DNA of 23,060 bases. Origin: a virus. Shown one piece after another: positions 4,206 to 18,354 of the stretch (its first letter is position 1; each line of letters starts with the position of its first letter). A program made the position numbers and the translations under genes. The stretch covers positions 1 through 23,060 of IMG/VR virus record IMGVR_UViG_3300019884_000013, one strand, 5' to 3'. The notes beneath the pieces are model-generated. The model was not told the origin of the DNA, ran no database searches, and saw only the letters and a program-made list of their open reading frames with translations.

Positions 4206-6008
4206 TTATGTGATCCTTAATGCTACCACGCACGGAAGTCCATCTGTAGCCGCATAAACATAATCACCAGCCGATAGTCCGCTTAATCCTGCAATATCCC
4301 ATGTTTGATCCAAAAGGACTTCATGTTGGATAGCATCATCCAGAGTTGGAGAGGACGGTGTAGATACATCTACCTTATGAATTTGATCGCCAAAATACTC
4401 AGTGACATATATTGTGTTAACATCTTTTACATATATTCCGTGTGCTCCTGCAATACCAGTGACAGTCCCTACATGTTGTATATCTGCTGGATCGGAGACA
4501 TCTAGTACAGTTAATCTACCAGTACCCGCATCGCAGGCACAATATAGAGTTTGACGATCTGCTGATAACGCTAATCCCCAAACTCCGTTAAGATTTGTTG
4601 CATCTGTGTAAGCTTGAATTTCGCTCATAGAAGCTGGATTAGATACATCAACAGATACAACCCTATCACCTGTATTACTAGCGACATATATCACATCAGC
4701 TACTTCATCTATAGCCAAGTCCCAAGGAGCATTAAAATTGGCATTTAAAAAAGAACTAATAATTGATAGATCAGATGGGTCAGAAAAATCTACAGAAGTT
4801 AATCTATTAGCTTCAGTGCAGCAAAAAGCTGTAGTTCCCTTAAATACAACAGCACGCATACCCGTTAAAGTTGTTGCATCAGTTATTGAATCCAATACAT
4901 CTGGAATAGTGGGGGTAGACACATCCATAGTAACAAATCTGCCACCCCCTCTACCTACAGCAATTACTAACCCGCTACTTACATATTTACAATCGAACAA
5001 ACTATTGAGAACGGTGCCATCTATTTTAATTCCAACTCTAACGGGCACAGCGGGATTGGTTACATCTATAACAAAGAAACTGTCACCGTTTTCACTAACC
5101 GCATATACATAATCTCCATTAGCATCAACGTCAAGACCATCAACATCATTACCAATAACAGGATCGACGTAGCCCACAAGTCTTAGGAAATGTTCTTCGA
5201 GCCAACCCTCTGCATAAGCTGCATCGAGATATTCGTCTCTACATTCCTGACTTATCTCAGAATTCCACCCAACAGCTATAGCATAGTACCCATTAGCGCA
5301 GGCGGAGTCTACATCAGCTGCTTCATCATTTGATCCAAGAAAAATAGGTTGTAACGTTCCTCTATCGAATCTAACACCCGTATTAATTTCAGTAATAGAA
5401 GTTCCTGTAAGACGAATGCCATCTTCGTACATAACCGGCTGATTATCTCCGGCTGGGAAGTATTGCTCAAGAATTTTCCAAGCACCAGCTTGCATAACAC
5501 CAGCGCTAAAGTTTTTAAATGTTTGATTTGCTACAGAACCGCTAGATGTTGTAGTTGTGCTACAATATCTGGACAACGACAAAAGAGACATGCTCTCCGA
5601 AGCTTCAACGCTTGGAGATTCTCTACGCATAAAAATGAAGCCGTCATCTGCATCACCTGTTGTCAAAGGATAATATACTACAATAACTGTGAATCCGTCT
5701 GCATATGCATCGAAGTCTGCGTCTGCAAAAGCAAAGCAGTTATCTGCATCACTAGGCACATCTCTACCTAGTTCTGGATAAGAAAGACCGTCCGGCCCTG
5801 CAAAAGTTGCAGGAGCATCATTATTAGCTAACACAAGATCGTTTGAACCCAAAAAACCATCGTTAGGCACTGTTTCAGTTTCTAAATTCATACCGTTTAG
5901 CCTATAGGCAAAAATAGGACTGCAAGCTAGCAATGCTTCGTATAATTCGCCTAAGGCTACTTGAACACCACGATGGATAATTCCCATCCCCATCCATGTG
6001 TCACTCAT
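4206..6008 (-). CDS. LamG-like plus seven-bladed LVIVD-type propeller protein, probable receptor-binding tail protein
   Basis: This encodes a 600-aa modular protein. Residues about 1-30 are a short N-terminal anchor. Residues about 35-270 look like a concanavalin/LamG jelly roll: an F-A-Y-R-L-N opening, alternating strands, and an A-I-A-V-G-W-N stretch near the end. Residues about 284-600 contain seven repeats of roughly 45 residues, each with a strand such as Y-V-Y-A-V or I-Y-V-A-S followed by a V-D-V-S-x-P type turn. This is the LVIVD repeat pattern and should fold as a seven-bladed beta-propeller, with the last blade closing at L-R-I-T. The ATG at 6008 overlaps the preceding stop and follows AGAGGG. 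Adjacent fibre and nozzle genes suggest that it binds glycans or another surface receptor. LamG domains and LVIVD propellers are known folds, but the receptor role is inference. Confidence 0.8.
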   Translation of the reverse strand: MSDTWMGMGIIHRGVQVALGELYEALLACSPIFAYRLNGMNLETETVPNDGFLGSNDLVLANNDAPATFAGPDGLSYPELGRDVPSDADNCFAFADADFDAYADGFTVIVVYYPLTTGDADDGFIFMRRESPSVEASESMSLLSLSRYCSTTTTSSGSVANQTFKNFSAGVMQAGAWKILEQYFPAGDNQPVMYEDGIRLTGTSITEINTGVRFDRGTLQPIFLGSNDEAADVDSACANGYYAIAVGWNSEISQECRDEYLDAAYAEGWLEEHFLRLVGYVDPVIGNDVDGLDVDANGDYVYAVSENGDSFFVIDVTNPAVPVRVGIKIDGTVLNSLFDCKYVSSGLVIAVGRGGGRFVTMDVSTPTIPDVLDSITDATTLTGMRAVVFKGTTAFCCTEANRLTSVDFSDPSDLSIISSFLNANFNAPWDLAIDEVADVIYVASNTGDRVVSVDVSNPASMSEIQAYTDATNLNGVWGLALSADRQTLYCACDAGTGRLTVLDVSDPADIQHVGTVTGIAGAHGIYVKDVNTIYVTEYFGDQIHKVDVSTPSSPTLDDAIQHEVLLDQTWDIAGLSGLSAGDYVYAATDGLPCVVALRIT

Positions 6009-6829
6009 GTTGTATAAAACCCTCTAACTGAAACTACCAAAATCTCTCCGTCACCAGCTGACTCGGTATCAATTGTAACAAGAATCTGGTCATTAGCTGC
6101 AATGGCAAGAGGAACTGATAGAACATCATTTTCAATTAAGTCTGATGCAGTTATAGTAGTAGTATTTTCAACAAAGTAGCCGCCAGAGCCACCAGTCTGC
6201 ACCCACAACTTTATAATATAATCTGTTGACGAAGCAGCAACTAGAGTAACAGAAACTTCAGTAATGTTGAAAGCTCTAAATGCATCATAACGACCCAATG
6301 TAGTAGTAGATGTTGGAGCTACTACTGTACCATAAGACCATTCTTTTTCAAAAGCAAAGAACTCTGTATCATACAAGTCAGCAATAATAGCATCAATTTC
6401 GGTCTTAGTATAATAATTATCATCAAGATCAGTAGCTAGGAGCAGAAGATCAGCTTCTACAGCATCAATTTCACCGGCTATAACTAACAAAAATGCATCA
6501 ATCTCATCCTTAGTATAGTAGATATCTCCGATTTCTCCAATAACAAGATTCTCGATGATAGCATCAACTTCGGCCTTAGTATAATAATTGGTGAGGTCTA
6601 CTAATTCCTCGTTTTCATTGATGAAATCAATCAACGACTGTACGTCAACTGCATGAACATGATCTTCTCTAGCAGGAATCGGAGAATTTCCAGTGTTTGC
6701 ATCTGCTTCCACAGAAATCGAGGAAGTAATTAGGGAGGGTACTGGCAAAGCTTCGCCAATATAATGCAGGTCCCTAACTTCATGCTCTGGGACAGTTAGA
6801 CCCGGTTTAAAAAGATCTCTAACTCTCAC
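6005..6829 (-). CDS. tail fibre-like protein with three Y-Y-T-K repeats
   Basis: This encodes about 274 aa from GTG 6829. A TTG at 6862 would add 11 residues. I prefer the GTG because it gives an 11-nt overlap with the nozzle gene, but neither start has a strong Shine-Dalgarno. The N-terminal 70 residues contain an H-V-H-A motif after a D-A-N-T-G-N segment, as seen in trimeric phage fibres. Residues about 80-160 carry three Y-Y-T-K-x-E-(V/I)-D-A repeats joined by acidic helical stretches, a pattern common in trimeric fibre stalks. The C-terminal 110 residues form a beta-rich domain ending in G-F-Y-T-T. It probably attaches the LamG/propeller protein to the nozzle or forms the fibre itself. 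The protein class is well supported by the repeats, but the exact position in the tail is inferred. Confidence 0.75.
   Translation of the reverse strand: MRVRDLFKPGLTVPEHEVRDLHYIGEALPVPSLITSSISVEADANTGNSPIPAREDHVHAVDVQSLIDFINENEELVDLTNYYTKAEVDAIIENLVIGEIGDIYYTKDEIDAFLLVIAGEIDAVEADLLLLATDLDDNYYTKTEIDAIIADLYDTEFFAFEKEWSYGTVVAPTSTTTLGRYDAFRAFNITEVSVTLVAASSTDYIIKLWVQTGGSGGYFVENTTTITASDLIENDVLSVPLAIAANDQILVTIDTESAGDGEILVVSVRGFYTT
6387..6589 (-). repeat. three imperfect 32-nt direct repeats in the fibre gene
   Basis: Copies lie at 6387-6418, 6492-6523 and 6558-6589. The first and third differ at only two positions, and the middle copy is more diverged. All encode the Y-Y-T-K-x-E-x-D-A module. Near-identity at third codon positions between the first and third copies suggests recent duplication or gene conversion. 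Confidence 0.8.
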
Positions 6830-8450
6830 TTCTCGGAGTCTTTCTATGACTATCCATATCAATAGCCGAGCCTAGAATGGTATATTCTTGAATCTCATTA
6901 TCAAGAATTAGTGATAGCTCAAACCGCAGATGACGGAAGAACTCCGGGCCTTTAATACGAATAAGGCCCTCATTGAAATTAACCACATCGGGAGTAATTG
7001 CAGCTGTTACTCTAGTATTTTCCTGCTCTGTATGCCAGGTATAGGTCATATTAACAGGGTCGCCATTTGTGCCTGACCTAGTGGAATAATTAATATAACC
7101 CAAGAGACTCTTTTTCTCTTGAAGCATACCACCACGGATAGTCTTAGAAAGATATCTAGCTTGCACTGCGTCAGTTTCAGCAGAACCGCCTACCTCTCTA
7201 AGAACGTCTTGATACCCAGTATATACTAAGCACTCAGCAGTTAGATCAGCAAAAGCTCCGTCATGCGAAGTACCATGAACTAGAACTAAATAATTAGCCT
7301 TACCCCAGATATGTTGCATTTCCATATTGGAGAAACTTCCAACAACATCTGCCGGCTCTGTTGTTGACTGAGCAAATGTGAATTCAGTCCAAGCAATATT
7401 ATCAAGTCTAGTGTAAAACAAACGTGCTTCTGAAACAGTTTTCTGAGTAGCAGCAGGAGGGACTCCATCCGCTACTGTTTTAGTTTTGCACAGCAAAAGA
7501 CCATCATCGAATGGAGTTAATTTCCATTCATAGTAAATTTCTTCCACAATTCCAATGTCAAAAACATCTTGAATAGATTCTGAAAGAAGTTTTACTTCAT
7601 CCTGATTAGTAGCCCAAACTCCTCTAGCATCGACAAAATAAATAATGCCGTTATTTTCATACGCACAGCTTTGATGATTAACCATTACTGTTGCGTCGAT
7701 AAGTCTAACAACCCAGTTTACTGGCGATCCAAGAATAGAAACGTTGTAGAACCCAGTGGAAGTAAACACAAAGAGTTTAGTGCCGATGGGAACGATACTA
7801 TATATCTTCCCCAGACCAGTTCCCGCTCCGATGTGGATAAATTTTCCATTGACATCCCAAGTTTCAGGATATGCTCCGGGGCTTGTGGGGGCGTCAGTAT
7901 AGTAAATTTTGGTATCATCCCAGCACCACATTCTATCTTTAAATACGAACAAGCCTCTCTTACCTGCAAGATCAGCAGTAATGAGAGTTTCAGTTACAGT
8001 ACCCGCCCCCCAATTCCAAACTGTATCTGAATTCAATCCTGAGTTATCTAGGATATAGATTTTATCCAGATAAATAACTGCACCACGAAATTGATCTATA
8101 CCTCCGAAATTAACGATGCTAGTTGCCCCCGCAGTTGAACCAGGAGCATCTCGATTAAATTGACGAATCATCCAGGTGTCGTTACCAACTCCCCAGATAG
8201 CAACCGGCCAATCTTCATTTGAGGAATTGGGGAGCCTCGTATACCAAGTCTCATGACCCATTCCAGAATAAGTCGCTCTTGTATCAATACTCAAAGGCGG
8301 GCTAAATCCCTTACGAGTAATTAACCTATCACCCTTAGCAACAAAGTTCTCTATCTCAGGACAAAAACCATCCTGTAGGTTAACAGGATGGTTGTAAGAA
8401 TCAATACCCTGCCCTACAGGAATTGGAATGCTTTCTTCTCCATATTTCAC
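6819..8450 (-). CDS. tail nozzle / packaged-DNA-stabilisation-like protein (gp10-type)
   Basis: This encodes a 543-aa beta-rich protein. The N-terminus has the typical layout of podoviral nozzle proteins: G-Q-G-I-D near residue 13, then N-L-Q-D-G-F-C-P-E-I-E-N-F near 24-36, and T-R-K-G-F near 45-49. Repeated strands with aromatic and Asp/Gly turns follow, consistent with a beta-propeller. The start is GTG at 8450, overlapping the adaptor stop (GTGA), with GGGGTG upstream. In P22-like tails this protein docks below the adaptor ring and closes the DNA channel. The gene directly follows the adaptor and precedes the fibre genes, which matches that role. It lies in the same transcript as the adaptor with no gap. 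The alternative is another propeller-type tail protein; the structural class is more secure than the exact P22 equivalence. Confidence 0.7.
   Translation of the reverse strand: MKYGEESIPIPVGQGIDSYNHPVNLQDGFCPEIENFVAKGDRLITRKGFSPPLSIDTRATYSGMGHETWYTRLPNSSNEDWPVAIWGVGNDTWMIRQFNRDAPGSTAGATSIVNFGGIDQFRGAVIYLDKIYILDNSGLNSDTVWNWGAGTVTETLITADLAGKRGLFVFKDRMWCWDDTKIYYTDAPTSPGAYPETWDVNGKFIHIGAGTGLGKIYSIVPIGTKLFVFTSTGFYNVSILGSPVNWVVRLIDATVMVNHQSCAYENNGIIYFVDARGVWATNQDEVKLLSESIQDVFDIGIVEEIYYEWKLTPFDDGLLLCKTKTVADGVPPAATQKTVSEARLFYTRLDNIAWTEFTFAQSTTEPADVVGSFSNMEMQHIWGKANYLVLVHGTSHDGAFADLTAECLVYTGYQDVLREVGGSAETDAVQARYLSKTIRGGMLQEKKSLLGYINYSTRSGTNGDPVNMTYTWHTEQENTRVTAAITPDVVNFNEGLIRIKGPEFFRHLRFELSLILDNEIQEYTILGSAIDMDSHRKTPRSES
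8366..8393 (-). repeat. perfect 11-bp hairpin followed by T-run inside the nozzle gene
   Basis: AACCATCCTGT and ACAGGATGGTT are separated by 6 nt. On the transcribed minus strand the 3' arm ends in GGTTTTTG, so the structure has the form of an intrinsic terminator. It lies about 60-85 nt inside the nozzle gene, in codons for S-Y-N-H-P-V-N-L-Q-D. Whether it terminates when translated is unknown. Confidence 0.7.
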
Positions 8451-9097
8451 GTCAGATATTCACCCCATGTGAAATCCTGATCTACAACATCAGGAGTGAC
8501 AACGTGAAAAGTATCATCTCTGGACATACTCTCATACTTACGAGAGGACATACTATTCTTAAATTTAGTATCAAATATTTCTGCCGCTTTCCAAGCTTCG
8601 TTACGTTCATGCAGTCGCATTACCGTATAATTGATTAAATCATTTCTGAACGAATCAGGAAATAGAATAGTATCTCCGAGCGCAGCCAAGTTAGCGTGAA
8701 GCTTAGCATAGTTAATTGTTACGACAGTAGTATCACCACTCGTTGGCTTAGGAAAACACCTCAAAAGAGTACCGTCTGTATAATATCCTTGAGGTTCTCC
8801 ATCGGGAGAATCATAGATAAACAGACGATCAATCATTTCTTGAGCCATAAGCGCAAGAGGCTTAGTGTCATAAATAACCCTCTTGATAACAATCAAATCT
8901 TCTTCGGTATTTAGCTCAAGACCGCTTCTAACAGCATTACCTGTACTTGCAAGAGTTCCGTTTAGGAGTAATGTTTCTCTAGATACCTCTCTAACAGCAT
9001 CATTAACAGCTGCGAGAAGAACATCTGTGGTTGCTACAACGCCATTGGTGTCTCCAAATAAATAGGTTGCAGGAACGGAAATATCTGAGCCAATCAT
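8447..9097 (-). CDS. head-to-tail adaptor protein (P22 gp4-like)
   Basis: This encodes a 216-aa, largely helical protein. The N-terminal third has the pattern of podoviral adaptors: a first helix with V-N-D-A-V-R-E-V-S-R, a middle strand region with T-K-P-L-A-L-M (about residues 78-84) and Y-Y-T-D-G-T-L-L-R-C-F-P-P-like strands. A C-terminal helix carries F-R-N-D-L-I-N-Y-T-V-M-R-L-H-E-R-N-E-A. In this family the subunits form a ring under the portal. The start ATG at 9097 overlaps the preceding stop by 4 nt and the stop overlaps the nozzle GTG by 4 nt, so the three genes are coupled. The position between head genes and nozzle is what the P22-like tail order predicts. The assignment rests on pattern and context. 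Confidence 0.7.
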   Translation of the reverse strand: MIGSDISVPATYLFGDTNGVVATTDVLLAAVNDAVREVSRETLLLNGTLASTGNAVRSGLELNTEEDLIVIKRVIYDTKPLALMAQEMIDRLFIYDSPDGEPQGYYTDGTLLRCFPKPTSGDTTVVTINYAKLHANLAALGDTILFPDSFRNDLINYTVMRLHERNEAWKAAEIFDTKFKNSMSSRKYESMSRDDTFHVVTPDVVDQDFTWGEYLT

Positions 9098-9570
9098 GTT
9101 TTCTTTTCCACCTTTGGAAGTCTACCATCTTCATAGATAGTAACTTTGGCATCACGATCTTCGTCATAGTAAGAATACTTAGATTTAGTGTCAGCAATAA
9201 TATGCGCCACCAAATCCTTCTTACTTTCCATCTTATCTCTATGAGAACGCTGAAGTTCATCCCTAAGTCTGCTATTGTTATCGTCAATCATCTGTAAGAT
9301 ATCATGCTTCTTAGAATCCGCAAGGTGAACACGTTCTACTACGGAGTCATTCAATTCCCAGAACTCGAAAACCTTGAATGCCCGGAGTCCGTTTGGAAAG
9401 GGGGCTTCTGAGAATGTGCAAGTAGACGGATCAACACACAAGACTTCCAGGGAATCGTCAATATCTTTGATTCGTTCAACGATTGCATGCGATCTAGCCT
9501 CCACAATCATATCGTCAATGACAATAAAATTGTCCTTGCCAGGAAGGTGAATAGTTTTTGACGTAGTCAT
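9094..9570 (-). CDS. conserved-looking helical/acidic structural protein (158 aa)
   Basis: This encodes a 158-aa protein with a beta-rich first half (I-H-L-P-G-K-D-N-F-I-V-I near the start and K-V-F-E-F-W-E-L-N-D-S-V-V-E-R-V-H near residues 66-82). The second half is a charged coiled-coil-like stretch (about 85-135) with a basic, acidic tail. The ATG at 9570 has TAAGGAAA upstream at good spacing. It overlaps the adaptor gene by 4 nt. I recall this F-W-E-L-N-D type of protein beside adaptors in other phages but cannot name the family. It may help connector assembly. It has no membrane segment and no catalytic motif. Confidence 0.7.
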   Translation of the reverse strand: MTTSKTIHLPGKDNFIVIDDMIVEARSHAIVERIKDIDDSLEVLCVDPSTCTFSEAPFPNGLRAFKVFEFWELNDSVVERVHLADSKKHDILQMIDDNNSRLRDELQRSHRDKMESKKDLVAHIIADTKSKYSYYDEDRDAKVTIYEDGRLPKVEKKT

Positions 9571-9597
9571 GATATTTTCCTTAAATAAGAACTAATA

Positions 9598-10356
9598 TTA
9601 TACATCAGGCAGCACAAATCCCTCTTCTATTTTAAGAGCTAGCATGATACCGTTATAAAAATTAGTAAATCCTGTTGCTGCGACGCCTCTATCTCCTAGA
9701 GCTTCAGGATTAGTAGTAAAACCATAAAAAGCAGCACATCTAGCTCCCGCCGCTATGCTAGCATCTCCTAAATCTAGATAAGTAGGATTACTTCCTGATG
9801 GATTAACAGGAGTTCCTCCTGCTATAAGACCGTTACCTTGTGCGATACAAAGTGCATCTTGTCCAGCCGTCATTGTAGCATAAGTCATATTACCACTACT
9901 TGTATTAGCTCCTCTGATACAAGTAGCCACAGCATTAGCTACACTAGAATTCTCAATACCTCTCCAAACAGAGATAAAAGCCGAGCAGTTAGAACTAGCA
10001 TAAGTTAAAACAACAGTTTCATTTTGTTCATTGCCTTCACAAATTTTTCCGTGAATCCCCCCTCTAGTAGTACCATTAACATCATTAATAACAGTAAATC
10101 CTGCGGCAGCTGAAGATGGAACATTACTATTAGACATATTATAATGCAAAACAGCAAAACTATTAATTGGTATAACTATATCAGGAAATAGTACATTTAA
10201 GGTATTAGCCCCAGAAGCTTCAGCAGCCATGGGTCCGACACCAATTAAACCAGCTACATTTTCAGGCTCCCCTAATTTATATACACCCATTCGCATAGGG
10301 TTAGAATGAACTCCTAATTGCATGGGTTCTGGTATAAGAAGGCCACTCATGCGCAT
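9598..10356 (-). CDS. beta-sandwich virion surface protein (252 aa)
   Basis: This encodes a 252-aa beta-rich protein with many Asn, Ser, Gly and Ala residues. The order of elements is an A-V-L-H-Y-N strand, then S-A-F-I-S-V-W-R-G-I-E-N near residues 126-137, then an A-x-x-G-Q-D-A-L strand. It resembles a phage fibre domain I know only by pattern: a strand pair followed by 'Y/W-R-G-(V/I)-(D/E)' and a later 'G-D-x-L-v' strand. The N-terminal 35 residues are Pro/Met-rich and probably a virion anchor. Two in-frame ATGs lie at 10356 and 10350. The first is used here, and both overlap the preceding gene's end. Its place between capsid and connector genes suggests a head fibre or decoration protein. 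That is inference. Confidence 0.7.
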   Translation of the reverse strand: MRMSGLLIPEPMQLGVHSNPMRMGVYKLGEPENVAGLIGVGPMAAEASGANTLNVLFPDIVIPINSFAVLHYNMSNSNVPSSAAAGFTVINDVNGTTRGGIHGKICEGNEQNETVVLTYASSNCSAFISVWRGIENSSVANAVATCIRGANTSSGNMTYATMTAGQDALCIAQGNGLIAGGTPVNPSGSNPTYLDLGDASIAAGARCAAFYGFTTNPEALGDRGVAATGFTNFYNGIMLALKIEEGFVLPDV

Positions 10357-11204
10357 ACCAAAGAAATATCCAGTATCGTACCTATGTGAGTAGTCTGGAA
10401 TCTAGCTGACAATCTACTACCTACAGGAATTTCAATACCGTATAGAGGAATATGCCACATAGTAATAGCTTCAGAACCGCTCGCAGAAATATAATGATTA
10501 GAAACTATAACAGTCTCAGCAGCAGCTGCTCCAATCCCAATATCAATTAATAGATCACCAGCAGTTACGTTAGTATTACCATTCAACTGAATACCAATAA
10601 GTAGACATGTATGATCTGCCGCCGTTGCAGCAACTATCTGAGTCCAAGCACCTTTCTGATTTGTACCCGCTGGTGTAGCTAATACTACACCTTTAGATGT
10701 AGCAGTGTCACAACCATACGAAGATGGTGCGCCAAAGGGAACTGCTCTAGCTTTAACAAATTTAAAATAAAAGGGGCTTCTGCTAGTACCTGCTTGGATA
10801 CCCCGAACTCTAGCAGTAACTCTTGTTCCTGAAGCAAGAAAACCAGGAATAAAAATCTCTCTTTGAGAACCTATGTTACCAATAGTAACTCGTGCCCATA
10901 CAACTTCAGCAGCGTTGGCTCCTGTAGCAATCTCAATAATAGAAAGACTAGCAGCAGCAGATGCGCTTGTAGCAGGCTGAGATATTCTTATACCTTCACA
11001 ATCACCACTTAAAGATGGATCAATTTCAACATATGCACCAGCAGCATGTGGAGTTGCATTTTGAATTAGAGTAGCTAAAGTAATGACGGAAGTTGCTGTA
11101 TTAACTCTATCGTCTAGAGAATCATAGAAAAATTCACTAGGAGTGCTAGGTTCGGGTTCTCCACCGCCAGCTAAGAAATTCTTAGGTAGCACATACCCAG
11201 ACAT
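10347..11204 (-). CDS. virion protein with two tandem beta domains (285 aa)
   Basis: This encodes a 285-aa protein made of two related halves, about residues 35-145 and 170-280. Both halves have an opening V-x-L-A-T segment and a W/Y-(V/T)-x-I strand. They then share an 'I-x-I-x-x-G-x-x-A-A-E-(V/T)-V' stretch and close with 'P-x-x-G-x-R-(V/L)-(T/S)-A-R'. This indicates an internal duplication of a beta domain. The first 30 residues contain a flexible Gly/Pro/Glu linker after L-P-K-N-F-L-A. The ATG at 11204 follows AGGTGACTAA, which is both the previous gene's end and a good ribosome site. Such duplicated domains occur in capsid or tail decoration proteins. The fold is inferred, and the duplication is visible directly. 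Confidence 0.75.
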   Translation of the reverse strand: MSGYVLPKNFLAGGGEPEPSTPSEFFYDSLDDRVNTATSVITLATLIQNATPHAAGAYVEIDPSLSGDCEGIRISQPATSASAAASLSIIEIATGANAAEVVWARVTIGNIGSQREIFIPGFLASGTRVTARVRGIQAGTSRSPFYFKFVKARAVPFGAPSSYGCDTATSKGVVLATPAGTNQKGAWTQIVAATAADHTCLLIGIQLNGNTNVTAGDLLIDIGIGAAAAETVIVSNHYISASGSEAITMWHIPLYGIEIPVGSRLSARFQTTHIGTILDISLVCA

Positions 11205-11492
11205 TTAGTCACCTGTGCCGACTCTTGCATTACTCCCTGAAACTAGAACATTAATGGTAGGAGTACCAGACCCAGCAATGGCATACAAATCGTCTTGTGA
11301 GCCTAGTTCAATTGAAAAGATTTCATCAACATAAATAGGAAAACCATTAGCAGCCGTAACAGTTGGACCACCAATATATACTGTATCAGAAGCATCTCGA
11401 ATCATAATTGTTTTTCTATTCGAGGCGCTGCCGCCTGAAGCAATAAGTTCAGCAGTTGTTGAGAGAGTGTATTTGTCATCTTTTAGAGCCAT
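11205..11492 (-). CDS. small beta-rich virion protein (95 aa)
   Basis: This encodes a 95-aa protein with a clear protein-like sequence: a charged N-terminus, A-S-N-R-K-T-I-M-I-R near residues 23-32, G-G-P-T-V near 41-45, F-P-I-Y-V-D-E-I near 51-58, and Ser/Gly/Asn at the end. It is probably all beta. The ATG at 11492 is the only good start, yet the preceding 16 bases (TTTTTCGTTAATCAAT) contain no Shine-Dalgarno. Directly upstream is a strong terminator hairpin, and before that a strong ribosome site with a five-codon frame. Expression may therefore depend on readthrough and reinitiation. The role is probably a minor capsid or decoration subunit, inferred from position. Confidence 0.75.
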   Translation of the reverse strand: MALKDDKYTLSTTAELIASGGSASNRKTIMIRDASDTVYIGGPTVTAANGFPIYVDEIFSIELGSQDDLYAIAGSGTPTINVLVSGSNARVGTGD

Positions 11493-11502
11493 ATTGATTA
11501 AC

Positions 11503-11535
11503 GAAAAAGGGAGAGTCCCGTTAGGAACTCTCCCT
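11503..11535 (-). terminator. intrinsic terminator / attenuator after the decoration gene
   Basis: Read on the minus strand, AGGGAGAGTTCC, loop TAAC and GGGACTCTCCCT form a 12-bp stem with a single G-U pair, followed at once by five T residues. It lies 24 nt past the stop of the 170-aa gene and 10 nt before the ATG of the 95-aa gene. There is no room for a promoter between hairpin and ATG. It should cut transcription of tail genes relative to capsid genes. There is no T-run on the plus strand, so it acts only on the minus strand. Confidence 0.8.
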
Positions 11536-11550
11536 CAATCGTCCCCTCCT
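11521..11550 (-). promoter_or_regulatory. strong Shine-Dalgarno with five-codon reading frame overlaying the terminator
   Basis: AGGAGG (11550-11545) is followed after six bases by TTG (11538) and then AGG GAG AGT TCC TAA. The four sense codons after TTG are exactly the 5' arm of the terminator, and the stop lies in its loop. A ribosome initiating here would block the hairpin. The ATG of the next gene, which has no ribosome site of its own, begins 29 nt after this stop. Sequence and spacing are seen directly; translation of the frame is hypothesis. Confidence 0.45.
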
Positions 11551-11559
11551 TTTGAGGTT

Positions 11560-12072
11560 TTAGGAAGCTCTTGTAAGCTTCACTCCGAGCAATCCATAAT
11601 CCGCAGCCAAAGTATCGCCTGCATCACCACCGAGTCGTCCGACTCTTAGAACATTATAACCACCAGGAGTAACTGGAACATCCGTTGTTTCCTGAGTAAT
11701 TACAAGATCATCCTCGTCTTCACTTCCATCACAAGTGATGGAAGTAGAGACTACAGGAGTTGGAGTTTCTGCAACAAGAGAAGAACCGTTAGCAAGATCT
11801 TCCATGTAATAACCTAGTTTAACTACACCATCACCTGAAGTGGGGTTGTAGGTATACCAAGTTATGTTTACAGAATTCCAATGGCGGGGGGCGATAAATG
11901 GAGCTGAATACGACTCAGTTGCAGCTGCATCCAACAGAAGTCCTTGATGAATTGCGTCAACAATTTCACCTGTAGGGCCTGCTGCCGCAGCAATCAAGTC
12001 AGTCGCCATGAAATACAACTCACCAAGTGCTAGTGCAAATGTATGAGTTCCGTCATCCTGCTCCATACCCAT
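11560..12072 (-). CDS. putative capsid decoration protein (170 aa)
   Basis: This encodes a 170-aa beta-rich protein immediately downstream of the major capsid gene (2-nt gap). Residues about 58-95 contain A-P-R-H-W-N-S-V-N-I-T-W-Y followed by S-G-D-G-V-V-K-L-G-Y-Y. This is a strand pattern typical of phage beta-sandwich structural proteins. The C-terminus (Y-N-V-L-R-V-G-R-L near 141-149, G-V-K-L-T at the end) also forms strands. Two start ATGs are possible (12072 and 12066). Position after the capsid gene and before a terminator suggests production in capsid-like amounts, as expected for a decoration protein. No family is named with confidence. A head-tail joining role is the alternative. Confidence 0.7.
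   Translation of the reverse strand: MGMEQDDGTHTFALALGELYFMATDLIAAAAGPTGEIVDAIHQGLLLDAAATESYSAPFIAPRHWNSVNITWYTYNPTSGDGVVKLGYYMEDLANGSSLVAETPTPVVSTSITCDGSEDEDDLVITQETTDVPVTPGGYNVLRVGRLGGDAGDTLAADYGLLGVKLTRAS
11722..11745. repeat. perfect 11-bp inverted repeat inside the 170-aa gene
   Basis: ACTTCCATCAC and GTGATGGAAGT are separated by AA, so as RNA it would fold as a 10-bp stem with a 4-nt loop. No T-run follows on either strand. It lies in codons for T-S-I-T-C-D-G-S-E, about 330 nt after the start. Confidence 0.75.
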
Positions 12073-12074
12073 AA

Positions 12075-13292
12075 TCAGCCGCTCGATTCCGTAAGGGCAG
12101 TAAATCTACCATGAGCATTACGCTTATGAGTACCAAACTGCCAATACTGCTTCATGAGTGCTTCCCAAACATCGAAGTTTGACACCCACTTGAAGATAGA
12201 ACCGTCCAAATCCTCCCAATACCAATCCTTGTCACGGAAAATCTTCAATTCCTTTTCCGTAAGCATTGCCATTGTGGAAGCAGGAGCGTCTGGATCGCCA
12301 ACAACTGGAACTTCCTCGCCATCAGTATCGCTCTGGAAAGCAAGACCAACGAGACCACCAGTAAACTTCTTAGGCTCATTAAACCTACGAAGACCAGTAA
12401 GGATATTCCAGTAACTTCTGCGAACACCAAGTGAACAGAAGACTGCGGAAATCTTAGAACCACCCTCAGTTCTAATACGGTCTGCCATTGTAATCATGGC
12501 AAGTTCCGTAAGAGTTGTAGTAGTGGTATCCATAGTAGAAGCCCAAAACTCCTGACCAGCAGTTGCAGGATTAAGTCCATGCAAAGCACCGGCAGAGTTC
12601 ACGATATTAGAAATACCGTAAGGCTCCTTATTATAGTTACCAGTACGAGAGAGGTAAAAGCCGGAAGTCGAAGAAAGAACAGCAGTCATGGTAACAGTAT
12701 TACCAGAAATGCTCTCAATCTCAATGTTGGAATCGTCAACAGTCGGACCAGCCGAGTTAACGGTATCAACCTTCATACCAACTTCAAGCCAGTGAGCGTC
12801 ATCAACAGTAAAGTTATCGACACCAGCGGGCGAAGAAGTAAGTTCGGCAAGAATTCCAGTATGACCCAAAGCACCCTGATCCGGATGACCCCAGATAATT
12901 CTGTTCTCATCCTTACCAAGGTCTTGCTTAAGACCATCCATTTCCTCGTCAAGTGCATTAGAGAATGCCTGAGCGTTAGTTCTAGCAAGTCTCATCATCT
13001 GACCAGTAAACTTAACTCGGCCATAACCGTACTTAAGTTGTTCCTGAGCAGCCTTATAAGCCTGCTTACCTGCATCAGCAAGCTGTGCACTTTCATCTCG
13101 GTAAGAAATACCGTGGTTTCTACCGGAACGAACCGGGAAAACCACGTACTTACCACCAATATTTTCGGTTACATCATCGGCGGTTCTTTCGAGCCGCTTC
13201 ATTGTAACTCTTTCCTCGTTCAACTGATCGTTGATCTGACCCTCATAAACCTCTTTGAGGATATCAGCAACGGTAGTAAGAGTTGCGGACAT
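12075..13292 (-). CDS. major capsid protein
   Basis: This encodes 405 aa. The N-terminal region has the layout of a phage coat protein: a helical arm (D-I-L-K-E-V-Y), then I-N-D-Q-L-N-E-E near 20-27. Next come V-F-P-V-R near 51-55 and a spine-helix-like region with K-Q-A-Y-K-A-A-Q-E-Q-L near 76-86, then strands of an HK97-type fold. A W-G-H-P-D-Q-G stretch lies near 134-140, and the C-terminal half has an F-N-E-P-K-K-F loop and a W-Q-F-G-T-H-K-R-N-A-H-G-R-F end. The size is normal for the family. The ATG at 13292 follows GGAGGAATT and overlaps the scaffold stop. Placement after portal and scaffold makes this the coat protein by synteny. The fold is inferred, since no motif is catalytic. Confidence 0.85.
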   Translation of the reverse strand: MSATLTTVADILKEVYEGQINDQLNEERVTMKRLERTADDVTENIGGKYVVFPVRSGRNHGISYRDESAQLADAGKQAYKAAQEQLKYGYGRVKFTGQMMRLARTNAQAFSNALDEEMDGLKQDLGKDENRIIWGHPDQGALGHTGILAELTSSPAGVDNFTVDDAHWLEVGMKVDTVNSAGPTVDDSNIEIESISGNTVTMTAVLSSTSGFYLSRTGNYNKEPYGISNIVNSAGALHGLNPATAGQEFWASTMDTTTTTLTELAMITMADRIRTEGGSKISAVFCSLGVRRSYWNILTGLRRFNEPKKFTGGLVGLAFQSDTDGEEVPVVGDPDAPASTMAMLTEKELKIFRDKDWYWEDLDGSIFKWVSNFDVWEALMKQYWQFGTHKRNAHGRFTALTESSG

Positions 13293-14143
13293 TACGAATC
13301 AATTCCTCCAAGAATAGATTGGACTGCTGCCAGTCTTGTCTTTTTATCTTTCATCTTAGAAGAATCCACTTGATCCACCGCAGTTCTTCCCCCGCCAATT
13401 ACGGGCGGAGCAGTCTTTGCCTTTGGATTGTAATTCTTGCTAATCATTTCGTTGAAATCTGCAACTGCCTCATCTGGCTTCATGCCATTCATGATTCTGG
13501 CTAGCACAGCCATTTCATCGAAATCTCCATGCTTAGTATGGAGTTCCCCCATCATTTTGTCAAGCTGGCGTTGGCCGTCAGCATTTTCACGTTCTGATTC
13601 AATTTGAGTCATAAAGGACTCAAACTTATCAGCCTTAGCCTTCAAACTCTCATATTCCTTTACGAATTCAGGAGAGGCTCCATCAAAAAGCGGATTAGCT
13701 TCTTGACCAGTGTTTCCACCATCAGCATCATTGGACATTTCGAGTAAACCTTCTTCCTTAAGAAACGCACCGATTTCATTATAAAGTTTGACGGGGTCAG
13801 CATCGCCTAGCCTCATTAGATTAACAGCAGAAATCAAACTATCGTAGTCAACACCAATATCCAGGTATTTCTGGAGTTCAGCAGACTTAGCTTGAGAACT
13901 CTGCGTTACTTGCTTTCCCCACTCTTTATAGTATTTCTCAACAGCGGGCAAATCTTCTGGTGCAACATTCTTAAGGAATTCATTGACGAAAGCTTCATCA
14001 TCTAAGTTTTTGCCGTCGCCATTAATTCCTACAGGAGTAGTATTTGGATCAACTTCAGGCGGCTGATTGTTCTCCTCCTTGTCCAGGTTGAGTTGAAGTG
14101 CCTCCAGCCTCTGAGTCGCTTGACTGATCTGTTCCTCCGGCAT
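13292..14143 (-). CDS. scaffold protein
   Basis: This encodes a 283-aa, highly charged helical protein. The N-terminal 60 residues are Gln/Asn/Pro/Glu-rich and disordered. A coiled-coil-like region lies at about 150-195 (F-V-K-E-Y-E-S-L-K-A-K-A-D-K-F). The C-terminal 40 residues are basic, with S-K-M-K-D-K-K-T-R near 264-272, as expected for scaffolds that bind coat protein through a basic end. It lies between portal and major capsid genes, the classical scaffold position. The ATG at 14143 lies 89 nt inside the portal gene in another frame, with AGGA 12 nt upstream. In assembly it guides coat-protein polymerisation and is removed before packaging. Confidence 0.82.
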   Translation of the reverse strand: MPEEQISQATQRLEALQLNLDKEENNQPPEVDPNTTPVGINGDGKNLDDEAFVNEFLKNVAPEDLPAVEKYYKEWGKQVTQSSQAKSAELQKYLDIGVDYDSLISAVNLMRLGDADPVKLYNEIGAFLKEEGLLEMSNDADGGNTGQEANPLFDGASPEFVKEYESLKAKADKFESFMTQIESERENADGQRQLDKMMGELHTKHGDFDEMAVLARIMNGMKPDEAVADFNEMISKNYNPKAKTAPPVIGGGRTAVDQVDSSKMKDKKTRLAAVQSILGGIDS

Positions 14144-16091
14144 CTTGAATCTGTTGTCCTAACATAACTAGGTGATTGTTGTAGTGGTCCAAGAACAAAG
14201 CTTGAACTTGTGGATCAAGTTGTTCATAGGATTGCGATTTCATAAACTTCGTATGAACATATACATGGGCCTGGTGATTATCAAATGTATTGACTTGCAC
14301 CGGGTTTTGGAGGGGCATTGGTTCCGGAGGTTGACCGACTGCTTGTCCCATTTCACTAAGTTCAGGAGCAACTGTTGGCGGCTGAACTTGCTTCATCTTG
14401 AAGTTTTCTCGCTCAGCTTGGCGAGTATCAATCGCTAGTTCTGCATACAAACGTGACACTTCAGACATTTCAAGATACTTCAAACCTTCCATTGGAGGAA
14501 TGAGTCCCTTATCAATCAAATCAATAATAAAGGCTTGCTTAGCCGCTCTTGAACGAGGAGCCATTGAACCATGCTCAACACGGAAATCAACAGAATCAGG
14601 AAGTGAATTCTCTTTGAACTGCATCACTTCATATACCTGGTCGCCAGAGATAATCTGGACCATCTTACCAGGCTCCCAGAACTGCTTTGCAAGCATAATA
14701 GATTGATAGCCAACTGATTGAACCATTTCCTCCATAGAGGCAACAGTTTCCTCAAGAATGCTATCATTCTCCTCTTGAAGATATGCAATAGCAGAAGCGG
14801 CTTCCACTCCTGGTGGTGTCCTACCCTGAGTTACTTCATACTGGTTACTAATGTAATCCATATCGTTAAGAGAAGCTTGCTCAACATGCTGAAAATAAGC
14901 AGGAAGTTCAGGATTCTTAACAGGAATGGGAGGATCAAAACCAGGAGTATATTCAATAATCAAACCAGGCTGAGCACTAATCTTACGAACATCTACCGAA
15001 CCCTTTGGAACAGCCCATTGAGGCTTACCCGTTAGGTTCCTAGCTTCAATTCCCTGTGATCTGCTTCTGTTATATTCCTTCTGAATTGGAATAAGATCCT
15101 TTATGATGCTCTCAGCATAGAATCTACCTGTAGGAATATGATCTACTTTAGCAAAAGGATATAGGCCGTGTTCATAAGGAAATACAGATTCAGTAGTAGC
15201 ACCACCGACCATATTACTTGGGCGCTCTTTTTGCATAACAGCCGGTTGACCAGTTGTAGAATCAATAACAGGTTGACCCGTAGCCGGGTCAATTTGCATT
15301 TCAGGTGGCTTTTCAGCAATATAAATGAGCTTAGAATTTGAAATAACAAACATTGCACCTTCTGGGAATCGCTTGCACGACTTAACCCAGAATTCTTTAA
15401 GGAATACATGATCTAAAGCCTTCTCCTTCTTAGTAAGCCCCAAACTAAGTCGGAACTTAGACTCAGGATTGTCGGCATTAGAATCAGGTTCGACTTCAAC
15501 TCCGTAAGTATTGAATACTTCCTCAGTGGTCGTGGCAATACCATGAGTAACAAACTCCTGTTGCTGAATATCTTGTTCCTCTAGATTAGGAACCCAAATA
15601 TGGAAAGGAGAAGGTGAGAGATAGCAAATATCCTTATTAGGCTCATAGTACGTCTTAATAAAGCCCGTACCGCAAACACCTCTCCACCAAATAGCCTCTC
15701 TCTTTCTCAGAGCGAAGTTCTTTGAATCAAGGAGGTTCTCAGAGATAGCATTGGCCATTCTAGCTTTTGCCAAGTCCTCATCATCAGGAGAAGCAGGAAC
15801 AATATACCAAATTCCCCTCTCCTTGTTGACTTTGGAGTTCTCTTTGCGGACAATAGTCTTAACTCTGTTAGAGACTAGTCTAACTCGCCAAGCAGGAGCC
15901 TTGGGGAGAATCATGGAAGCAGTATTTGCAGCAGACGAAGTCCACTGCATGTAATGCCTACCGAAGTAAAAAGCTAAATTAGTATACCATTCCTTCTCAA
16001 AAGGTTGCCTTTGAGACCTCGCAGCATTAAATTTCTCGAGGTATTCTTTAGCTAATTTCTGATCCGGCGTCGAGGTCTCGGAGTTCGCCAC
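14055..16091 (-). CDS. portal protein
   Basis: This encodes 678 aa, the size of large podoviral portals. It starts at GTG 16091, six bases after a GGGGAG ribosome site. Recognisable parts are an N-terminal helical part with R-Q-P-F-E-K-E-W-Y near 27-35 and a C-G-T-G-F-I-K-T-Y region near 130-138. The central K-E-Y-N-R-S-R-S-Q helix lies near 343-351. N-Q-Y-E-V-T-Q-G-R-T-P-P-G-V-E-A-A (near 423-439) is typical of the P22/T7-like portal family. The C-terminus is Gln/Gly/Ser-rich, a possible barrel or disordered tail, and is double-coded with the scaffold start. The protein forms the dodecameric ring at the capsid vertex and docks the terminase. A duplicated T-G-Q-P segment lies near residues 268-280. 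Confidence 0.88.
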   Translation of the reverse strand: MANSETSTPDQKLAKEYLEKFNAARSQRQPFEKEWYTNLAFYFGRHYMQWTSSAANTASMILPKAPAWRVRLVSNRVKTIVRKENSKVNKERGIWYIVPASPDDEDLAKARMANAISENLLDSKNFALRKREAIWWRGVCGTGFIKTYYEPNKDICYLSPSPFHIWVPNLEEQDIQQQEFVTHGIATTTEEVFNTYGVEVEPDSNADNPESKFRLSLGLTKKEKALDHVFLKEFWVKSCKRFPEGAMFVISNSKLIYIAEKPPEMQIDPATGQPVIDSTTGQPAVMQKERPSNMVGGATTESVFPYEHGLYPFAKVDHIPTGRFYAESIIKDLIPIQKEYNRSRSQGIEARNLTGKPQWAVPKGSVDVRKISAQPGLIIEYTPGFDPPIPVKNPELPAYFQHVEQASLNDMDYISNQYEVTQGRTPPGVEAASAIAYLQEENDSILEETVASMEEMVQSVGYQSIMLAKQFWEPGKMVQIISGDQVYEVMQFKENSLPDSVDFRVEHGSMAPRSRAAKQAFIIDLIDKGLIPPMEGLKYLEMSEVSRLYAELAIDTRQAERENFKMKQVQPPTVAPELSEMGQAVGQPPEPMPLQNPVQVNTFDNHQAHVYVHTKFMKSQSYEQLDPQVQALFLDHYNNHLVMLGQQIQDAGGTDQSSDSEAGGTSTQPGQGGEQSAA
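15273..15292. repeat. perfect 8-bp hairpin inside the portal gene
   Basis: TTGACCCG and CGGGTCAA are separated by TAGC. It lies in the codons of the duplicated T-G-Q-P segment. A stem of this size can arise by chance; it is listed with the longer ones for completeness. Confidence 0.5.
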
Positions 16092-16365
16092 TTATTTCTC
16101 CCCAAACATTATCAATGTAGGTTGCTTCATTCTCCTGCTCCAAATTAGCATCAGGATCACCTTCTAAGTCAGGTGGGTGAACTTCCGGAATCTCCAAATT
16201 TTCCGAATTCAAGATGGGTGACCGTGAGACTATCAAAGTCAGCTGCTGGTTTGTCTGAAGAAGCATCTGATTTGTCTGAGTCAGACTTTGAATCTGCTCC
16301 CTCTGAGTCTGCACTACGTCCATCAGAATCTGTATTAGTGGTTCCGGTTCCAGTTGTGTCGACAT
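16048..16365 (-). CDS. coiled-coil protein (105 aa) overlapping the zinc-ribbon gene
   Basis: This encodes 105 aa. Residues about 8-48 form a clear heptad pattern with Leu/Ile/Val at regular positions and Gln/Thr/Asn between (L-I-Q-I-L-M-D-V-V, I-Q-S-L, M-L-L-Q, Q-L-T-L-I). An acidic C-terminal half follows. The ATG at 16365 has AGGA about 11 bases upstream. The first 66 codons are in a different frame from the C-terminus of the 221-aa gene, and its last 44 nt overlap the portal start. Small coiled-coil proteins between terminase and portal occur in other actinophages as far as I recall. The function is unknown. The heptads argue that the frame is real, because shadow frames rarely give this. 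Confidence 0.62.
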   Translation of the reverse strand: MSTQLEPEPLIQILMDVVQTQREQIQSLTQTNQMLLQTNQQLTLIVSRSPILNSENLEIPEVHPPDLEGDPDANLEQENEATYIDNVWGEISGELRDLDAGSEIS

Positions 16366-16834
16366 TATCGTCAGTTCCTAACATCTCATTGACCAAATCA
16401 TCCGCAGTTGGAGTCTCTGGTTCCTTAGGAGGGGATACAGTATTATTTTCAGCATCAAGCTTAGATTGCAAAGAATAACGAAGCTGTTGATTATCAGATT
16501 CCATTGAAGTTAATTGCTTACGAAGCATCTTAATTTCACCCTGCAAGGTTCTAATTTCACCTGCATTGGTAGCATGAATCAATCCTCTAGCAACAAGCTG
16601 CTGACGATTAAACTCATTAACTTTACTCAGATAAGACACCATAACTGAAGCAATACAAATATTGCAAAGATAAACAGCACCATCAGACAAGTAAAGCTGA
16701 CCATGATCGTCAGTCTTTTCCCAAGCTACATCAATACCAAGATCAACCCAGTGTTCCCGTTCATTGCCTGTGCCACAAATGGCACAAACATTTGGCCTAA
16801 AAGGAGGCTTGTCTACAATCTGGAGGGGTCTCAT
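16169..16834 (-). CDS. zinc-ribbon protein with acidic Ser/Asp-rich tail (221 aa)
   Basis: This encodes 221 aa. Residues 17-60 contain two C-x-x-C pairs (C17/C20 and C57/C60), forming a likely zinc ribbon around a W-V-D-L-G segment. A helical, coiled-coil-like stretch runs over about 62-125. Residues about 155-205 are a low-complexity tail of Ser, Asp, Lys and Thr, and the end is glycine/serine-rich. The ATG at 16834 overlaps the terminase stop (ATGA). The gene lies between large terminase and portal, so it may assist packaging or serve as an adaptor. No enzyme motif is visible. The tail is read in a second frame by the 105-aa gene, so its odd composition may partly reflect that constraint. 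Confidence 0.75.
   Translation of the reverse strand: MRPLQIVDKPPFRPNVCAICGTGNEREHWVDLGIDVAWEKTDDHGQLYLSDGAVYLCNICIASVMVSYLSKVNEFNRQQLVARGLIHATNAGEIRTLQGEIKMLRKQLTSMESDNQQLRYSLQSKLDAENNTVSPPKEPETPTADDLVNEMLGTDDNVDTTGTGTTNTDSDGRSADSEGADSKSDSDKSDASSDKPAADFDSLTVTHLEFGKFGDSGSSPT
16769..16786. repeat. 7-bp hairpin near the start of the zinc-ribbon gene
   Basis: TGTGCCA and TGGCACA are separated by CAAA. It lies 48-65 nt inside the 221-aa gene, over the codons of the first C-x-x-C pair. A stem of this length is expected by chance at modest frequency. Confidence 0.4.
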
Positions 16835-18354
16835 ACTTCCGTTCCCATAAACTCGTCAATGGATATTTCATTCTTATACGCCTGCTCCCAATCGAAATCA
16901 GAAGAAGGAGTTACGATGTGGAGCCCAGGAATAGTCTCTCTCTGTTCAACCTCTAAGAACTTACGAGGACGAGACATAACGCCATAACGAAGTGCATCGC
17001 AGGCGTGATCATCTTTCTTGACAGGTTCTTCCTTCAGATTCTTTCGATCCTTAGCTTTTGTAAGGTGTCGATCCCATCTGTATTTACGAAGTTCCTTCAA
17101 CAACTCCTTACAACGTGTGGTTATAATAAGTTGCTGCTCCCTGAACATATTTTGCACATAAGCGATTCCACTGTCAACGTTGTTGTTTCCCAAACCAATC
17201 ATAACGCCATGTTCAGCGAATTGTGCTTGTCTACTGACACCTTGGTGTGGGTCAGTTTGAGCTAGTGCAGGATCACCAATTTTATATTGGGTGATAATTT
17301 CTAGCTCTCGTTCTTTGCCCAACCACAAAGCGGCTAGGTCTTGAATGATAGTCTTATTTTTGTAGATTTCATCATAGATGATAATTTTGCCATCTTCGTT
17401 GTATGCTCCAAAAAGAATCGCCGTGGGGTTATTAAATCCATGGTCCATCATTTGAAAATGCGACCAAGTATCTCGCAACAAAGGCCAACGGCTAGACTTA
17501 AGGATATCAGGGCACACATTACCTGCATGGCTGAATACTTCCCCGTATACCAGACCTGTATGGGAAATATATACGCCGGTGGAACGTGTTTTCTTTTCTT
17601 CATCACTCATTATCTCCGTGAGTCTATCAAAAGCCTCCCGCCGAATATGAGGATTCTCGAATGTTTCTACTTCAATTACTTCAACATCAATATCTCCAGC
17701 CAAACCTGGCTCATACAATACATCATAGGTCCATGACATCTCAATAAGCGGTGTCATGGTCATCCACCAATCACCATCAGTATCAATCAAACGTGCAAGA
17801 TTTTCCTTGAAGATTTCCTGAGGAGGTTCCTCATCAAACCAACAAAAGTGGCGACTAGCTCCTGAAAACTTCTGCCAATCTTGCTCATAGGACATAAAAT
17901 CCATGGTTGATCCATTATTCAAAGTCAGAATCTTCTCTGTTCTTGAATATGAATCTTCCCAAGAATTATTAAGAAGATACTTTCCAGGCATCCATCTTTG
18001 AATTTCAGGAATAATTAGCTGATTAATACCTAAATTGAAATCAACCGCAACTGCACGTCCCCTACAGGGGGGAGGGGGAATATGATCTAAGGTAAATGGT
18101 TCCCCGTTTATGTCATGGATAGTGCGTTCGCCGGTTAATCTAATAACAGACTCTGCTGCACCACCGACTGTTTTGCCGGCTCGGTTTCCACCCATATACA
18201 TTCTACCTTTACGGCGGGATTTATGAAACCGTTCTTGTTTAGCATGAGCACGATATCCGTAGATACCTGGCGCTTGTCTAGCTTTGCGAATAGAATTGAC
18301 AAAGAGCCTTTGCAAATCCTGCAAAGGCACTTCATCTGGTTTACGTGCCATCAC
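16831..18354 (-). CDS. terL: terminase large subunit
   Basis: This encodes 507 aa, or 506 if the second codon ATG (18351) is used instead of GTG 18354. The ATPase domain has Walker A G-G-N-R-A-G-K-T at 55-62, Walker B F-C-W-F-D-E-E at 170-176, and the coupling motif M-T-M-T-P at 198-202. The nuclease domain has acidic residues in M-M-D-H-G (D304), I-G-D-P-A (D361) and D-H-A-C-D-A-L-R-Y-G (449-458). These are the expected RNase-H-fold metal ligands of phage terminases. The length is normal. The protein pumps DNA into the procapsid through the portal and cuts the concatemer. Its start overlaps the stop of the 210-aa gene, and its stop overlaps the zinc-ribbon gene. It is separated from the probable small subunit by the lysis genes. 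Confidence 0.95.
   Translation of the reverse strand: MMARKPDEVPLQDLQRLFVNSIRKARQAPGIYGYRAHAKQERFHKSRRKGRMYMGGNRAGKTVGGAAESVIRLTGERTIHDINGEPFTLDHIPPPPCRGRAVAVDFNLGINQLIIPEIQRWMPGKYLLNNSWEDSYSRTEKILTLNNGSTMDFMSYEQDWQKFSGASRHFCWFDEEPPQEIFKENLARLIDTDGDWWMTMTPLIEMSWTYDVLYEPGLAGDIDVEVIEVETFENPHIRREAFDRLTEIMSDEEKKTRSTGVYISHTGLVYGEVFSHAGNVCPDILKSSRWPLLRDTWSHFQMMDHGFNNPTAILFGAYNEDGKIIIYDEIYKNKTIIQDLAALWLGKERELEIITQYKIGDPALAQTDPHQGVSRQAQFAEHGVMIGLGNNNVDSGIAYVQNMFREQQLIITTRCKELLKELRKYRWDRHLTKAKDRKNLKEEPVKKDDHACDALRYGVMSRPRKFLEVEQRETIPGLHIVTPSSDFDWEQAYKNEISIDEFMGTEV
18059..18070. repeat. CCCCTACAGGGG hairpin, copy in terL
   Basis: A 5-bp GC stem with a two-base centre, with T before it, gives the 13-mer TCCCCTACAGGGG. 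The identical 13-mer occurs at 21488-21500 at the end of the small terminase gene. Here it encodes part of a run of prolines. Confidence 0.5.
18306..18328. repeat. perfect 9-bp hairpin near the terL start
   Basis: GCCTTTGCA and TGCAAAGGC are separated by AATCC. It lies 23-48 nt after the start codon, over codons for P-L-Q-D-L-Q-R-L. No T-run follows on the minus strand. Confidence 0.7.

Follow-up and report, generated by a model that had tools for sequence, protein, structure and literature searches.

A hairpin after the capsid genes of an uncultured phage as a candidate partial terminator and spacer of a split Shine-Dalgarno sequence

The viral DNA analysed here, 23,060 nt in length and referred to as the window, carries on its minus strand a strong hairpin between a 170-aa gene and a 95-aa gene that follow the capsid gene (Table 1). 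We incline slightly to the view that this is a post-capsid partial terminator whose hairpin also provides the spacer in a split Shine-Dalgarno (SD) sequence; both functions, termination and SD bridging, we infer from the sequence and its predicted fold. The motif AGGAGG is separated from ATG 11492, the start of the 95-aa gene, by 52 nt in unfolded RNA, and by 8 nt when a predicted extended hairpin loops out 44 nt. If this reading is true, one small structure would act both on transcription, as a terminator, and on translation, by bridging a ribosome-binding site; gene prediction software that insists on an SD close to the start codon would then judge this start wrongly.

Table 1. Features at the junction in window coordinates (L001-L003 are three relatives with the same junction).
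Feature	Position	Strand	Basis
170-aa gene, upstream, possible capsid decoration protein	11560..12072	minus	position; homologues in L001-L003
CCTCAAAAGGAGG, Shine-Dalgarno AGGAGG 11550-11545 under small CCUC/GAGG pairing	11545..11557	minus	sequence and fold
Extended hairpin (outer helix, 13-bp stem and U-tract), proposed SD-ATG spacer	11500..11543	minus	MFE -29.2 kcal/mol
Intrinsic-terminator-like hairpin, 13 bp, 4-nt loop, T5	11504..11536	minus	sequence and fold
Mini-frame TTG AGG GAG AGT TCC TAA (MRESS), judged fortuitous	11521..11538	minus	sequence; absent in L001-L003
95-aa gene, downstream, start ATG 11492 without local SD	11205..11492	minus	start conserved in L001-L003

The 170-aa gene ends with TAA at 11562-11560, and 67 nt lie between it and the 95-aa gene. 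The layout described in the original prediction was recovered: a perfect AGGAGG, a TTG (11538-11536) six nucleotides past it, four codons (AGG GAG AGT TCC) that form a 12-nt part of the 5′ arm, and a stop codon, TAA 11523-11521, in the loop. The hairpin and its T5 were likewise as described, but the stem, given as 12 bp, has 13 bp, the thirteenth pair being G-U. Its arms (11536-11524 paired with 11519-11507) contain 7 G-C pairs and are followed directly by the U-tract (11508-11504), which is the layout of an intrinsic terminator. The region folds with a z-score of -5.7, and none of 200 shuffles folds as well. Among 4600 segments of 60 nt tested over the whole window the hairpin is the one of lowest energy (-33.4, against a window mean of -10.9 and a standard deviation of 4.0), and it is the strongest terminator-like site within 5000-18000. 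A second terminator-like hairpin, with an 11-bp stem and then TTTG, is present at 8366-8393 on the minus strand, inside the first 90 bases of a 543-aa gene.

ATG 11492 is the true start of the 95-aa gene, as three homologues align from M1, and it was correctly said to have no SD, the SD pairing being 0 at spacings of 4-15. No usable SD stands at a normal distance from this start. Two pairings had been missed earlier. The first is an outer helix between GACGA (11543-11539) and UCGUU (11504-11500), which encloses a UU/UU internal loop, lies partly beyond the U-tract and is present in both the MFE and the centroid folds. When this helix is closed, AGGAGG would fall within the range of about 5-11 nt expected of a split ribosome-binding site, and the collapsed sequence has an SD pairing of about -10.7 kcal/mol at spacing 8, against 0 without folding. 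The second is a small pairing of CCUC (11557-11554) with GAGG (11548-11545), which may partly mask the SD in the predicted fold; the pairing of AGGAGG with the anti-SD of 16S rRNA amounts to -12.1 kcal/mol versus -5.1 kcal/mol for this small hairpin. Because part of the outer helix is 3′ of the U-tract, the helix would form only in readthrough RNA, which appears to fit a translational role better than a part in termination. This helix is short, and the split arrangement occurs in one sequence only. Of 8277 candidate starts in the phage DNA examined, 77 are closely preceded by a strong hairpin; the start in the window is the only one of these with an SD immediately ahead of the hairpin and none behind it.

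The proposed course of events is as follows. Most late transcripts over the capsid and 170-aa genes would end at the U-tract, and a fraction would read through, perhaps aided by the ribosome that finishes the 170-aa gene 23 nt before the stem. In the readthrough RNA the helix is predicted to extend past the U-tract and to bring AGGAGG to its position near ATG 11492, where the bridged SD would support translation of the 95-aa gene. As a result, capsid products would be abundant and everything downstream scarcer. The simpler alternative put forward earlier was a plain partial terminator whose folded hairpin lets AGGAGG reach the ATG, and it is this alternative that fits best, the bridging itself being a prediction of the fold. 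A plainer version, in which the terminator is partial, the 95-aa gene starts without an SD and AGGAGG has no role for that gene, seems to us unlikely. Initiation would then rely on an A/U-rich, unstructured start region or be coupled to ribosomes that come off the 170-aa gene. Weak SDs do occur at several other starts in the window, in line with such a route, but nearly all of the starts with a weak or no SD overlap or abut the upstream gene, whereas that of the 95-aa gene follows the 67-nt gap. Moreover, a strong SD at an effective distance of 8 nt is a rare arrangement, which argues against its being without use.

The junction is known from four sequences, namely the window and three contigs (L001-L003) that came from a capsid protein search and share the gene order capsid, 170-aa gene, 95-aa gene. 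In these contigs the 170-aa stop is followed by CCTCAAAGGAGGGG, a hairpin with T5, GAAAGGATT(T)AA and the ATG or GTG of the 95-aa gene. CCTCAAAGGAGGGG is retained before the hairpin in all three, and the two longer contigs have no other copy of it in their genome; CCTCAAA(A)GGAGGGG (window 11544-11557, minus strand) is common to all four phages there. The stem sequences, GCTAGGGT...ACCCTAGC in the relatives versus GGGAGAGTTCC...GGGACTCTCCC in the window, have nothing in common, and it is therefore as a structure that the hairpin has been kept. The helix of the relatives also closes 1-2 nt past AGGAGGG, through other bases (CAG/CUG, 3/3). To the SD and helix kept in these three sequences a second SD is added, a local one after the hairpin in front of the 95-aa gene (3/3), and only the window is without it. 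At the 95-aa start the relatives read GAAAGGATTTAAATG versus AATCAATATG in the window, and a 10-nt alignment gap removes the local SD. In phage T7 the SD of the next gene lies after the hairpin of the terminator Tphi, and the relatives of the window have theirs in the same place.

The presence of both AGGAGGGG and a separate SD in the relatives favours the plainer terminator, as it means that AGGAGGGG need not serve the 95-aa gene. The collapsed spacing from AGGAGGGG to the 95-aa start is about 17-19 nt in the relatives, too long for ordinary SD use. AGGAGGGG may be conserved there, despite the local SD, for another reason: as an extra ribosome landing site, or through a role in the hairpin structure or in the mRNA of the upstream gene. 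Other explanations of these conserved letters were tried and rejected. AGGAGGGG could instead pair with the 3′ arm, but this pairing is weak in the window and is not kept in the relatives. CCTCAAAGGAGGGG slightly resembles a T3/T7 promoter for a phage polymerase, but there is a single copy per genome in the longer relatives, and no T7-type polymerase was found: PF00940 had no match in six related records, which are possibly incomplete, and gave nothing in the control genomes either. As a general motif, CCTCAAA-GGAGGGG with T5 returned from a scan of viral contigs the three known relatives and chance matches without terminators.

The original prediction had placed its main weight on the mini-frame: a ribosome starting at TTG 11538 would melt the terminator and reinitiate at ATG 11492, giving an attenuator controlled by translation. 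We regard this as very improbable. The SD is perfect, the spacing of 6 nt is suitable and the stop of the frame lies inside the loop, and an SD with a short frame like that of the window was seen at none of 59 terminators in other phage DNA. AGGAGG itself preceded none of the 59, which are few for a strong statement. Against these points stand the three relatives, which keep the hairpin and AGGAGGGG and have no ATG, GTG or TTG at SD distance from AGGAGG (3/3), so that no conserved short frame overlies the terminator in them. Relatives that have the hairpin without the TTG frame had been named beforehand as evidence that would count against the attenuator; they exist at the sequence level, and the 95-aa gene has its own SD there. 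Of the elements whose joint conservation was to be compared, the SD and the hairpin structure are shared by the three relatives, and the TTG and the stem sequence are not. In addition, TTG is a weak start and lies partly within the folded structure, and MRESS carries no regulatory codon pattern. Judging from timing, the polymerase would advance by just a few nucleotides from the moment the TTG site is exposed until the hairpin folds, too short an interval for new initiation. As the mini-frame is not conserved in the relatives, it is probably fortuitous, an accident that would arise as a by-product of a strong SD beside a purine-rich stem.

An influence of translation on termination is nevertheless possible without the mini-frame. 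In E. coli, ribosomes at nearby stop codons repress terminators, and full efficiency is reached only above about 27 nt (PMC4824070). The distance of 23 nt from the 170-aa stop to the 13-bp stem lies within this repressing range, although figures from E. coli may not be those of the host. The window resembles pyrBI-type leader attenuators and ribosome-repressed terminators in having a terminator close behind a stop codon (PMC4824070). It differs from the pyrBI type in having no conserved leader frame, and the stop codon of the 170-aa gene itself would be the source of any coupling.

The two halves of the preferred reading, termination behind the capsid gene and bridging of the SD by the hairpin, are separately known, the former from T7 and the latter from T4. 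In T7, Tphi stands behind capsid gene 10, and genes 11 and 12 depend wholly on transcripts that pass it (PMC5592923). The window would share with T7 a partial terminator after the capsid gene and readthrough into downstream virion genes, but Tphi serves a phage RNA polymerase. A terminator has also been predicted after the major capsid gene of the Fri1-like Acinetobacter podoviruses AS11 and AS12, at the same position of the late operon (PMC5537680). These are different phages with a T7-type RNA polymerase, and the excerpt of PMC5537680 makes no mention of a split SD. Split translation initiation is described for T4 genes 25 and 38 (Nivinskas 1999; Malys and Nivinskas 2009, as described in PMC3014915), in which the SD is too far from the start and an intervening RNA structure brings the two within workable reach, as is predicted here. 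The spacing is reduced from 22 to 5 nt for gene 38 and from 27 to 11 nt for gene 25, and the gene 25 arrangement is found in close relatives only (PMC3014915). The hairpin of the window differs in being also terminator-like, with T5, in its raw spacing of 52 nt as against 22-27 nt, and in that the split is a prediction from sequence and fold. One hairpin as both terminator and SD bridge was not found in the literature covered by our limited search.

The place of the hairpin was compared over a wider family. Searching with a profile built from 14 capsid proteins yielded 80 loci, and the comparison took in 65 distinct post-gene sequences, among them those of the window and of the phage record L023; capsid identity among the relatives is 40-84%, and they are not all independent. 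In 53 of the 65 no segment of the surrounding 4 kb is more stable than the one that immediately follows the capsid gene; about 3% would be expected by chance. In the window, L001-L003 and most of the other exceptions the stability minimum comes after one further gene. The post-capsid hairpins of L164-L243 and L023, a family of uncultured podovirus-like phages, have sequences that are fully turned over. By automated classification the SD of the next gene lies after the hairpin in 45 of the 65 and inside the 3′ arm in 15; only the window has it in front of the terminator with none after or inside the hairpin. The remaining four comprise three without a detected start and one with a misplaced helix, and were left unclassed. 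In L174, L184, L194, L198, L200, L177 and L222-L228 the next start codon abuts or lies within the stem and the SD (e.g. GTAGGAGGGACACATG) is in the 3′ arm; these likely have an SD-masking hairpin in place of a terminator.

A clear U-tract (at least 6 T in 8 nt) is present in 21 of the 65, about a third. What stays constant in the family is the strong hairpin behind the capsid gene, and 'terminator' may not be the shared function. Tentatively, and with more doubt than confidence, we suggest that throughout the family the hairpin associated with the capsid gene serves as a control point, fixed in place but free to change in sequence, with the SD of the next gene after it, inside it or, in this phage, before it, and that it sets both the passage of RNA and its translation. 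The comparison over the family also suggests that in these uncultured phages it is the post-capsid hairpin that sets the excess of capsid. The same strong hairpins in nearly all of the 65, many without a U-tract, would also be expected if the structure were mainly a 3′-end stabiliser or processing stop for capsid mRNA and differential decay set the stoichiometry. The window and its three nearest relatives, however, have T5 directly at the stem, the classic terminator layout, and we think such a stabiliser quite unlikely.

The names 'decoration' and 'tail' given earlier to the flanking genes are guesses from position. Neither protein has a Pfam match; the 170-aa protein has no PHROG match, and the 95-aa protein has a single one, of unknown function. 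Homologues of the 170-aa protein in L001-L003 are 44-47% identical to it. Viral contigs yielded no further homologues of either protein, and genome contigs none of the 95-aa protein. The structure model of the 170-aa protein is a beta-sandwich of low confidence (pLDDT 57), and a weak match to a beta-sandwich resembling carbohydrate-binding modules was consequently not relied on; the model of the 95-aa protein (pLDDT 39) is unusable. Elsewhere on the minus strand, the region 8447-9097 matches the head-tail adaptor family of phage SU10 (PF24175, E 2.6e-13), which suggests a neck of podovirus type. Within a 285-aa gene, positions 6384-6589 of the same strand hold three imperfect 35-nt repeats encoding recurring YYTK-x-EIDAI-like segments.
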